Source: Candidatus Methylacidiphilales bacterium
Lineage (GTDB): Bacteria > Verrucomicrobiota > Verrucomicrobiia > Methylacidiphilales > CAZTYG01
Length of the DNA stretch: 64,000 bases
Assembly (NCBI GenBank): GCA_033875315.1
Contig: JANRJG010000015.1
Coordinates: forward strand, 62,001-126,000
Direction of reading: 5' to 3'
Each line of letters opens with the position of its first letter. Position 1 is the first letter of the stretch. The position numbers and the translations under genes were made by a program. Under the pieces are notes generated by a model that saw nothing but the letters and a program-made list of their open reading frames with translations, was not told where the DNA came from and made no database searches. Shown here piece after piece: positions 27,220 through 30,903 of this stretch.

Positions 27220-28569
27220 ATGAAAACGGCATTGGTCTGGTTCCGGCGTGATCTGCGGTTGGAGGACAACACCGCCCTGCACCGTGCCTTGTCAGAGGCG
27301 GAGCAGATTGTCCCCGTGTTTGTCTTCGATCCCAAGATCCTGTCCTCGCCCGACGTCGGCGGGCGGCGGGTGGCCTACCTGCTGGCCTGTCTGGATTCGT
27401 TGGACAAGAACCTGCGCCACATCGGAGGCCGGCTGATCCTCAGGGAAGGTGACCCCGTGACCGCGCTGCGGGAATTGGCCCGGGAGGCCGGGGCCGAAGC
27501 GGTCTTTTGGAACAAGGACTATGAGCCCTTTTCGCTCAAGCGGGATGCGGCGGTGGAAGCCATGTGCGGATCGTCCGGCTTGGCTTTCCGGGCCTTTGAC
27601 GATCAGTGCGTCCATGCCCCGGGCACGGTCCTGAAGCAGGACGGAACCCCCTACACCGTGTTCACGCCTTTTTCCCGGGCTTGGAAGGAAAAGCCCGAGC
27701 CTTCTCCCTGGCCAAGACCCAAATCCATCCGCGTGCCGGGTGGTCTGGCCGGGGCGGCCCTGCCCACCTTGGAAAGCCTGGGCCACCGCGTGGATATCGA
27801 GCTGCCCCCCGCGGGAGAGCGGGCGGCGCACGAGTCGATGAAAGCCTTCCTGGCGGAAGCGGTTGGCACTTACAAATCGCAGCGCGATATCCCCTCGGTG
27901 GAGGGCACCTCTCGCTTGTCACCCCACCTGCGGTTCGGGACCCTTTCGCCGCGAACCGTTCTGGCGGGCGCGCGCGCAGCCCTGAGCCGCGGGGTGGGGC
28001 CGGAGGCCGAGATCGGGGTCTTCGTTAACGAACTCATCTGGCGCGAGTTTTACAAACACATCCTCCATCATTTCCCCCATGTCGAGAGTGGTTGTTTCCG
28101 GAAGGGGTATGACGCCCTGGCGTGGGAGAATGATAAATCCCTTTTTGCCGCATGGTGCGAGGGCCGCACGGGCTACCCGATTGTTGATGCGGGCATGCGG
28201 CAGTTGAACCAGACCGGCTGGATGCACAACCGCCTGCGCATGATAACGGCCAGCTTCCTGACCAAGGACCTGCTCATCGATTGGAAGTGGGGTGAACGCT
28301 ACTTCATGAAGCAGTTGCTCGACGGTGACCTGGCGGCCAACAACGGGGGTTGGCAATGGGCGGCGGGGACCGGGACCGACGCGCAACCCTATTTCCGGAT
28401 CTTCAATCCTTCCAGCCAGACGGCCAAGTTCGACCCGGAGGAGAAGTTCATCCGTCGCTATGTTCCCGAGGTCGATACGCCCTCGTATCCGCGCCCGGTG
28501 GTGGTGCATTCCGAGCAACGGGACAAAGCACTCGCCTTGTACAAGACCGTGCGCGATGCCGGTCTGTAA
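27220..28569 (+). CDS. phrB: Deoxyribodipyrimidine photo-lyase (CPD class I)
   Basis: The protein has 449 residues, the normal length for the family. It starts MKTALVWFRRDLRLEDNTAL, the antenna-cofactor domain. The C-terminal FAD domain shows FVNELIWREFYKHILHHFP, AWCEGRTGYPIVDAGMRQLN, TGWMHNRLRMITASFLTKDL and GGWQWAAGTGTDAQPYFRIF. It repairs cyclobutane pyrimidine dimers using blue light, with FADH- as catalytic cofactor. It is divergent from an NAD-binding protein gene, and no other repair gene shares its operon. Confidence 0.92.
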   Translation: MKTALVWFRRDLRLEDNTALHRALSEAEQIVPVFVFDPKILSSPDVGGRRVAYLLACLDSLDKNLRHIGGRLILREGDPVTALRELAREAGAEAVFWNKDYEPFSLKRDAAVEAMCGSSGLAFRAFDDQCVHAPGTVLKQDGTPYTVFTPFSRAWKEKPEPSPWPRPKSIRVPGGLAGAALPTLESLGHRVDIELPPAGERAAHESMKAFLAEAVGTYKSQRDIPSVEGTSRLSPHLRFGTLSPRTVLAGARAALSRGVGPEAEIGVFVNELIWREFYKHILHHFPHVESGCFRKGYDALAWENDKSLFAAWCEGRTGYPIVDAGMRQLNQTGWMHNRLRMITASFLTKDLLIDWKWGERYFMKQLLDGDLAANNGGWQWAAGTGTDAQPYFRIFNPSSQTAKFDPEEKFIRRYVPEVDTPSYPRPVVVHSEQRDKALALYKTVRDAGL

Positions 28570-28711: not shown

Positions 28712-30415
28712 GTGGCCGATCCAAGGAAACCATTGCTGCTGCGCCCGTTGTTGTGGCTGCGCCACGGTTGGCCTTGGGCTTTGGCGGTGGCGTTGCTGGG
28801 ATTGGTTTCGACGGTCCTGGTCCTGTGGAGGGTGGCTTCCTACGACCACAAGGATCTCGTGCGATGGGCCGGGCGGCAGGTCGGGTATGAAGTCGAGGCT
28901 GGCTCCGTAACTTTTCCCAAAGCCGGGCGTTTGGTCATCCGCAACCTGCGGGTGGAGGACTTTGCCCGGGTCGAATACCTCGAATTGAACGGGTCCATCT
29001 CTGGCTTGTTCGGACGGACGTTGGATACCCTGCGCGTGCAGGGGTTGGAAGTGCAATTGGGCAAAATGCAGACCGCCCTGAATCAGCGCCAAGGGGGTGT
29101 TTCGACCAAAAAAACAACAAAACTTTTTTCTTTTACCTTAAAGAATCTGATGATCGGCCAGAGTCGGTTGATATTGGATAATCTGGGTCCGGGCATTCCT
29201 CCCCTGCCGGTGCGATTGGGGGATGTGACCCCCATGGTCTTCACGAATCTGCACTTGGGCGGGGCGGAAGAAGATCCGGCGGCGCGGGAAATCCAGATCG
29301 CCACCCTGGAAAACATCATCATCTATTCGCCCTATGATGCCTCGGCGCCGGTGCTGGCTTTTGACAAGATCCGGGTCGGCTTCAGTTGGTCGGGCATCCA
29401 GCAAAAGCAGCTCGACCAGTTGGTGCTGGAAGCGCCAACCATCTACATCGGGCCGGACCTCTTCTGGTTTTCCGACCGGATGAAGGAAGCAGCGGCGCGC
29501 GCGCCCAAGACCGTGGCTTCCGAAACTCCGTGGGGCATCGCGGATTTCCAGATCATCCAGGGTGGGCTTGTCCTGACCCGCGATGGCCAGCCGGCGATCA
29601 AACTGCCCCTCACTTTCGAGTCGCAGCAAAACGGCCTGGTGTTGTCCGATTTCAGCAGCCTGCAATTGGCCCGGGCCGGTTTCCGCATTCCGCTGACCAA
29701 CCTGCCCTACCCGGAATACAACCTCAGCATCGTGGGGATGGAGGGGGAACTGTATTTCAGCCTTCCGCTCGAGGAGCGTGGCCAAAAGGAAAAAGATTTG
29801 AGCAACATCACCCCTGCGTTGAAAATCAAATCGGCACTCTGGAAGGGGTTGGAGCTGCGGGATGTGGCCATTTCGGTCACCTTCGACCGCAAGGGCGTTT
29901 ACGGGGCGGTCGACGGGCTGGCCTACCAGGGCTCGGTCAAGGGGGGATTCACGGTCATGCTGGACCATGCCATGAGCTGGAATGCCTGGGCCTCGACCAC
30001 TGGAGTGGAGTTGGACCCGGTGACCAATCTGCTCAGCCCGGAGCACTTTGTCATGAGGGGTTTGGTGGACAGTTCCTTTGCCGTCAAAGGCCGGAGCCGC
30101 ACGGTCGATGAGTTCACTGGCAAGGTCGATCTCAACCGCCCCGGGAGGATGACCGTCAACGCCGTCGACCGCGTGCTCCAGGACCTCCCGCCGGAGTGGA
30201 ATTCCCTCAAAAAAGAACTGGCCCGGATCAGCCTGGAGGCTTTCCGCGACTACGATTACACCGGGGGCCGGGCCGAGATTGCCTTCAAGCCGCCGCACAG
30301 CGCCTTCCGCTTGGACCTTGACGGGAAGCAGGGTAAAAGGAACGTTAACCTGACCTGGGAAGACCGGGGCCTGCTGGCGCCGGAAAAAATCAACCCCATC
30401 ACCCAAACCAAATGA
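28712..30415 (+). CDS. YdbH-like/AsmA-like intermembrane bridge protein
   Basis: The start codon is a GTG at 28712; the protein has 567 residues. One N-terminal membrane segment (WPWALAVALLGLVSTVLVLW) is followed by a long periplasmic beta-rich region. It contains AsmA-like signs: YEVEAGSVTFPKAGRLVIRN, repeated IxxxxxxLxL strands and a C-terminal block near MRGLVDSSFAVKGRSRTVDE. YdbH and TamB/YhdP proteins bridge the inner and outer membrane and carry phospholipids. E. coli YdbH is about 880 residues, so this one is shorter. The next gene encodes a combined YnbE/YdbL-like lipoprotein and overlaps it as ATGA, which supports the YdbH reading. Confidence 0.68.
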   Translation: MADPRKPLLLRPLLWLRHGWPWALAVALLGLVSTVLVLWRVASYDHKDLVRWAGRQVGYEVEAGSVTFPKAGRLVIRNLRVEDFARVEYLELNGSISGLFGRTLDTLRVQGLEVQLGKMQTALNQRQGGVSTKKTTKLFSFTLKNLMIGQSRLILDNLGPGIPPLPVRLGDVTPMVFTNLHLGGAEEDPAAREIQIATLENIIIYSPYDASAPVLAFDKIRVGFSWSGIQQKQLDQLVLEAPTIYIGPDLFWFSDRMKEAAARAPKTVASETPWGIADFQIIQGGLVLTRDGQPAIKLPLTFESQQNGLVLSDFSSLQLARAGFRIPLTNLPYPEYNLSIVGMEGELYFSLPLEERGQKEKDLSNITPALKIKSALWKGLELRDVAISVTFDRKGVYGAVDGLAYQGSVKGGFTVMLDHAMSWNAWASTTGVELDPVTNLLSPEHFVMRGLVDSSFAVKGRSRTVDEFTGKVDLNRPGRMTVNAVDRVLQDLPPEWNSLKKELARISLEAFRDYDYTGGRAEIAFKPPHSAFRLDLDGKQGKRNVNLTWEDRGLLAPEKINPITQTK

Positions 30416-30903
30416 TCATGACCCCTACCCAATCTTTACGCCGCGTGCTTTTCCTGCTGCCATTGGTTTTCCTCTCCTGCGCCCCCACCGTCAGGCTTTC
30501 CACCCCGGACCCGGTGAAAATCGACGTGAACATGAACGTCCACGTCACGACCGAGGCGGTGAAAAAGTCGGTCGACGGCGACCCCGGAAGCTATTCCCCG
30601 AGGCAGGCCCGGCGCGAGCGCATGGCCGAGTTGCAGGCTTTGAAGAACAACCGCATCGTCGGCGAGGGCAATGACGGCCTGATCGTGCTGAAGGAACCCC
30701 CGGTGGACCCTGCCTATCAATCTTATATCGCCCGGGTGGTCAAGGAGGAGAACGCCGACCGGCAGATGATCCTGAACGATGACGCCGAGTCCAAGAAACA
30801 GCCCGTTTCCGTGGTGGCGCGGGACTTCGCCCGCCGCAACCGCGAGGCCGCCTTCCCCGGCGAGTGGGTGCAGCAGGAAGATGGGACCTGGATCAAGCGG
30901 TAG
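30412..30903 (+). CDS. YnbE-like lipoprotein fused to a YdbL-like (DUF1318) domain
   Basis: The protein has 163 residues. A signal peptide ends in a lipobox (LVFLSCAP), making Cys23 the likely lipid-anchored residue. The next 20 or so residues, VRLSTPDPVKIDVNMNVHV, resemble the mature YnbE lipoprotein, with its alternating N-x-N beta strand. Residues about 65-163 match DUF1318/YdbL, ending VARDFARRNREAAFPGEWVQ then a DGTWIKR terminus. In E. coli these are two genes, ynbE and ydbL, beside ydbH. Here they look fused and follow the YdbH-like gene with a 4-base overlap. Confidence 0.75.
   Translation: MIMTPTQSLRRVLFLLPLVFLSCAPTVRLSTPDPVKIDVNMNVHVTTEAVKKSVDGDPGSYSPRQARRERMAELQALKNNRIVGEGNDGLIVLKEPPVDPAYQSYIARVVKEENADRQMILNDDAESKKQPVSVVARDFARRNREAAFPGEWVQQEDGTWIKR

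Follow-up and report, generated by a model that had tools for sequence, protein, structure and literature searches.

The window, by which we mean the whole 64,000-nucleotide stretch of DNA analysed here, contains two overlapping genes on its forward strand. The upstream one (28712..30415, +; GTG start, TGA stop at 30413-30415) is a ydbH-like gene, and its 567 aa product is a predicted inner-membrane-anchored AsmA-like protein with a predicted N-terminal membrane helix at aa 21-43 (28772..28840, +), a hydrophobic stretch assigned as helix by DSSP on the AF2 model. The downstream gene (30412..30903, +; ATG start, TAG stop) codes for a lipoprotein of 163 aa, in which parts corresponding to YnbE and YdbL are fused, and the two genes share an ATGA stop/start overlap (30412..30415, +). 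The preliminary description had listed a ydbH-like gene followed by a 163-residue lipoprotein with a lipobox at Cys23; both reading frames were found where it placed them, and the lipobox was recognized in the sequence behind a hydrophobic signal (LFLLPLVFLSC). The lipoprotein reads MIMTPTQSLRRVLFLLPLVFLSC|APTVRLSTPDPVKIDVNMNVHV..., that is, a signal peptide (aa 1-22, with Cys23 30412..30480, +), an alternating segment, a linker and a DUF1318 domain. Cys23, which stands directly before the strand segment, is predicted to be lipidated and is invariant in 21 aligned members of the family.

Upstream of the pair lies a deoxyribodipyrimidine photolyase-like gene (27220..28569, +), named by eye from its sequence. 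It also directly precedes the ydbH-like gene in other genomes of the window's taxonomic order (L135, L137, L138), and is probably functionally outside the YdbH-YnbE-YdbL system. The window comes from an incomplete draft assembly of 42 contigs, whose completeness is 95.65%.

The C-terminal part of the lipoprotein had been described as a DUF1318 end, and this assignment holds. PF07027 (DUF1318) matches aa 69-163 (30616..30900, +) over profile positions 3-92 of 92 (E 1.8e-15, 57.6 bits vs. a cut-off of 27), and AF2, run with 21 sequences, modelled the domain with a pLDDT of about 97. The sole significant Foldseek match of the lipoprotein model was PDB 28oj (E 5.7e-5, TMt 0.88 for the YdbL length, rmsd 1.8 Å, 23% identity), the crystal structure of E. 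coli YdbL, which is titled 'probable chaperone-like protein'. The fold search found this structure clearly, whereas by sequence the window protein matched it in the PDB at E 0.76 only. The GE...G, N..R and terminal W positions are common to the window domain and to E. coli YdbL. Although the C-terminal fold is like that of 28oj, the latter is a free domain without a YnbE segment, whereas the window domain is not a free periplasmic protein with a plain signal peptide, being preceded by the lipobox Cys23 and the YnbE segment. DUF1318 is present in a single copy in the genome.

A YnbE-like segment had been proposed for residues 24-50, together with a comparison of these residues with YnbE; we find the segment better bounded as aa 24-45 (30481..30546, +), C-APTVRLSTPDPVKIDVNMNVHV. 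The Pfam model of YnbE, PF13617, did not match it, but an HMM and profiles built from mature YnbE did. PF13617 matched none of the 21 fused clade members. This model covers aa 26-59 of E. coli YnbE, and about half of that is a charged or helical tail (KDVEELL / DDFFGDLD), which is gone in the window clade and has a linker in its place, so the missing match reflects a limit in the coverage and sensitivity of the model. An HMM made solely from eight proteobacterial YnbEs (E. coli, Salmonella, Proteus, Klebsiella, two from Photobacterium, Pseudomonas and Azospirillum) gave the mature N-terminus of the window protein 16.5 bits (E 8e-5, 237 sequences), compared to 7.9 bits for the best of 2040 shuffled segments. 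The scores of the clade on this HMM ranged from 16.6 down to 2.6 bits, thus some fell below the best shuffled segment; every member scored above the first unrelated lipobox N-terminus (1.2 bits). Profile-profile comparison (hhalign) of the fused clade with the eight proteobacterial YnbEs gave probabilities of 84-87% and E values of 4e-6 to 8e-6; with either clade profile 0 of 300 column-shuffled versions reached the real YnbE score, and the reversed YnbE profile gave E 0.012 with the fused clade. The likeness of the mature starts begins at the Cys residue, as can be seen by comparing C-TPTVQLAAPSEPININLNVKIEHEI of Pseudomonas YnbE with C-APTVRLSTPDPVKIDVNMNV of the window protein.

Within the segment V35-I37-V39-M41-V43-V45 alternate strictly, and the alternation of hydrophobic and polar residues known from YnbE was seen in all 34 clade members, with V/I/L/M/F at 203 of 204 inward and 10 of 170 outward positions; both counts are in part imposed by the search pattern. 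Judged from sequence comparisons, the YnbE-type segment is not a product of chance. In the monomer AF2 model (21 sequences) the YnbE segment and the linker are disordered and the strand is not docked on the YdbL domain; disorder of the isolated segment is what the model would be expected to give for a strand that needs a partner. The flexible linker (aa 46-68; 30547..30615, +) follows from the low pLDDT (about 49-60 for aa 41-60), and its last residues open the first DUF1318 helix of the model (helix 63-79). Across the clade the distance between the strand and DUF1318 is 20-40 aa, with a median of 24.

The reading of the first gene as YdbH-like gained support from a profile-profile match and from synteny. 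A profile of 19 orthologues matched a YdbH/PF11739-type profile, made from E. coli YdbH and 17 Verrucomicrobiota proteins, with a probability of 98.2, E 5e-14 and a score of 124 (hhalign); the best of 60 column shuffles scored 21.7 and the reversed profile 39.3. The conserved part is the C-terminus: the region of about aa 323-542 (29678..30337, +) is homologous to the C-terminal part of E. coli YdbH. Five long relatives, encoded beside fused genes in other families of the class, link both profiles (E 1e-73 and 1.3e-11). Profiles were needed on both sides, the match of the YdbH-like profile to the single E. coli YdbH sequence being too weak (probability 0.3), and the cut-off of PF11739 was not reached by the window YdbH clade, of which 3 of 19 members matched weakly (best E 0.0091). 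The AF2 model (mean pLDDT 76.7) has a beta-rich body behind the N-terminal helix; a PDB fold search with it gave no significant match, and a sequence search of the PDB with YdbH found no relative at E<=1. We interpret the neighbour as a putative shortened YdbH homologue, with the profile match and the synteny pointing to YdbH within the AsmA-like group.

Searching the window genome with the YdbH profile gave no match and missed the window gene itself, so this search was insensitive. The other AsmA-like candidates of the genome (G000:C39:81593-82489 and G000:C8:56499-56870; L175-L179) are a 514-aa frame, which matches AsmA above the cut-off but YhdP and DUF748 only with scores below theirs, and a frame of 796 aa with a weak match to DUF748. 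TamB had no match in this 95.65% complete assembly (E<=0.01). In view of these results, the YdbH-type bridge may carry more of the load than in E. coli.

A survey of Verrucomicrobiota, which the preliminary description had suggested, showed that the fusion is not an isolated case. One clade has it as a fixed trait, and a second fused form is present in other parts of the phylum. DUF1318 was found in 50 of 62 genomes of the window's order, which is Methylacidiphilales as judged from the named relatives (Methylacidiphilum, Methylacidimicrobium), and in 137 of 388 genomes across the phylum. Every full-length member read among the first 30 loci of the order was fused (28 loci besides the window; one copy was truncated at the end of its contig), and fused genes of this type were also found in Chthoniobacter, Prosthecobacter and other Verrucomicrobiales. 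An alignment search of the genome contigs identified 24 named loci, and a single-sequence search of the contigs with the window protein gave no match. At most other DUF1318 loci read in the phylum, a ydbH gene is followed by ynbE and ydbL as two genes. At the 66 distinct split loci a small lipoprotein, C...EIKPIHITIDVNVKVDRALDDFFGDLD, precedes a DUF1318 protein that bears a plain signal peptide. The split loci (e.g. L033, L072, L094) are like the window in having an upstream YdbH-like gene, a YnbE strand and a DUF1318 domain with the GE...G, N..R and terminal W at the same positions, and differ from it in having two genes, the EIKPIHITIDVNVKVDRALDDFFGDLD core in YnbE and a plain Sec signal on YdbL.

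The second fused form, F2, was found at 12 loci (L047, L064, L073, L080, L083, L095, L103-L108). Like the window protein, it combines a lipobox, a YnbE segment and DUF1318 in one ORF and has a YdbH-like gene upstream; its YnbE segment, however, has the local split-type sequence (profile comparison with split YnbE, E 1.9e-19), and its DUF1318 lies outside the branch of the window clade. In a set consisting of E. coli YnbE, 27 split YnbEs and three F2 fusions PF13617 matched 14 of 31 sequences (E<=10), and 6 of 10 F2 members scanned had weak matches in the right place (E 0.015-0.16). The PF11739 cut-off was passed by 7 of 10 upstream proteins, namely by 4 of 4 from split loci and 3 of 4 from F2 loci (L083, L095, L104), and it was not reached by the two from window-type fused loci. 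In the DUF1318 tree the window type forms one branch (SH-aLRT 99) and F2 stands apart; in five families (f29, f34, f45, f46, f86) split loci occur alongside fused ones. The tree requires two or more state changes, but its 89 columns are too few for a firm count of fusions or for the ancestral state.

Several loci depart from these patterns. Most genomes searched in family f7 carry a second, divergent lipoprotein with DUF1318 and a degenerate YnbE-like start (CRSVRISPQQPKLYDVNVSVNV; CAPLRLQSPEPLLFDVDLDTEI; L168 and L173, Methylacidiphilum sp. Yel and Verrucomicrobia bacterium LP2A), and the ORF upstream of the divergent gene at L173 is not YdbH-like. At L143 and L149 (G051 and G049, family f9) the ydbH-like and fused genes are divergently transcribed neighbours without overlap, and at L139, L140 and L142 (G004, G015, G002) the fused gene has no recognised adjoining ydbH-like gene. 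DUF1318 was matched three times in one genome, where two of the matches share a contig and are separated by about 3.5 kb (L117, G187:C13). The YdbH-like proteins of many split loci (L056, L059, L060, L078, L090, L092 and others) end in a motif like APV.LD.NVNGP.E.L..LG, unlike those of the window clade, which end in GKRNF.I.W; the docking edge may differ between the split and the window-type forms.

It is instructive to compare the locus with its E. coli counterpart. Kumar, Davis and Ruiz (PNAS, 2024) reportedly described an intermembrane bridge formed by YdbH and YnbE of E. coli. In E. coli, YdbL is free in the periplasm and is proposed to keep YnbE from stacking into multimers. According to published accounts, YdbH of the inner membrane interacts with YnbE, an outer-membrane lipoprotein (PMC12977461; PMC11784454), and the YdbH C-terminus and YnbE are proposed to join by strand addition (PMC12045153). 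The overlapping ydbH and ynbE genes are strongly translationally coupled (PMC6728339), and the ATGA overlap in the window is of the same kind. As stated in the preliminary description, ydbH, ynbE and ydbL are adjacent in E. coli, and their order is the same as that of the parts in the window and of the genes in the split Verrucomicrobiota loci. The likeness thus extends to gene order, overlap of the first two genes, homology of the YdbH C-terminus, a YnbE strand after the Cys residue and the DUF1318/YdbL fold. In contrast to E. coli, YnbE and YdbL of the window form one polypeptide, the YdbL part is predicted to be lipid-anchored, the YnbE part lacks the tail after the strand, and the YdbH-like protein is, with 567 aa vs. 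879, about 310 aa shorter.

Profile, structure and synteny all support the three-part reading (YdbH-like protein, YnbE segment, DUF1318 end) that had been made from the sequence. We think, with a probability of roughly three in four, that the two proteins of the locus make up an intermembrane lipid bridge of the YdbH-YnbE-YdbL type, with the YdbL control domain joined to YnbE. We base this on the gene order common to E. coli and the split loci, the YnbE match, the YdbH homology, the YdbL fold and the ATGA overlap, and also on the genome's content, as it has one DUF1318 and, by PF13617 at E<=10, no separate YnbE. Against it speak the PF13617 and PF11739 cut-offs, which the window clade does not reach, the missing YnbE tail, the monomer model, in which the strand does not dock on the YdbL domain, and the length of the YdbH-like protein, which may be too short to span the periplasm.

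By analogy with E. coli, the beta-rich YdbH homologue anchored in the inner membrane would be one end of the bridge and the lipoprotein would go to the outer membrane, where its alternating YnbE strand would add onto the open edge at the C-terminus of the YdbH-like protein. The added strand would lengthen the hydrophobic groove up to the outer membrane, and phospholipids would travel along this YdbH-YnbE groove. The YdbL domain, on its linker of about 20-25 residues, could act in cis on the sticky strand, which it would hold or cap; the strand would then pair once with YdbH and not stack with other YnbE strands.

It is conceivable that the N-terminal piece is a mere lipid tether and spacer, which anchors YdbL to the membrane, while the bridge has its strand from another source or needs none. 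The failure of PF13617 in the clade, the loss of the part after the strand and the disorder of the segment in the monomer model would fit this explanation; we consider it unlikely, because the segment matches the proteobacterial YnbE HMM and profile, and keeps its in/out alternation in 34 of 34 members, because the genome gave no match to another YnbE (E<=10), and because the TPEPVKIDV core would hardly be retained in a bare tether. The neighbour might, alternatively, belong to some other AsmA-like/DUF748 or GspN-like type whose cargo or partner is different, with the lipoprotein serving that system. AsmA-like families have a common fold and cross-match, and the single-sequence matches of the YdbH-like protein were to PF05359 DUF748 (E 6.5e-5, below the cut-off) and weakly to the T2SS protein GspN of Leptospira (0.0088). 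Such a partnership seems improbable to us in view of the match to the YdbH C-terminal profile (E 5e-14), which is far above the shuffled and reversed controls, and of the DUF1318 and YnbE companions, which are those of ydbH operons.

We also considered whether the fusion might be artificial, caused by misassembly, a frameshift or faulty gene calling, as the genome is a draft (42 contigs, completeness 95.65%). The one-frame architecture is, however, found in single-contig genomes (G023, G024, G025, G026) and in named Methylacidiphilum and Methylacidimicrobium isolates; the same fused frame thus recurs in many independent genomes of the order, and we rejected this explanation as having a negligible probability.

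Returning to the two-protein bridge, YnbE and YdbL in one chain would mean that the helper and its client are always present 1:1 and at the membrane. A more speculative idea, which we put forward tentatively, is that YdbL is a stoichiometric subunit of the bridge and not a passing chaperone; in the fused lineages it would remain as a permanent cap at the outer-membrane end of each YdbH-YnbE bridge, limiting strand stacking and perhaps handing lipids over to the membrane; as part of this idea, fusion or splitting of the YnbE and YdbL parts may have occurred more than once.

The searchable literature, of which our search had partial coverage, does not mention a YnbE-YdbL fusion, and within that coverage the fusion is a so far unreported variant of the known YdbH-YnbE-YdbL system. 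The movement of phospholipids to the outer membrane of diderms is an active question, and no part of the YdbH bridge is less understood than the role of YdbL. Structural work on a sticky strand that is hard to handle may be more convenient with the fused protein, which is a single chain. The existence of a natural fusion speaks for a direct action of YdbL on YnbE, in a 1:1 ratio, with YdbL able to stay attached during the work of the bridge; in this group of Verrucomicrobiota each bridge probably carries its own helper.
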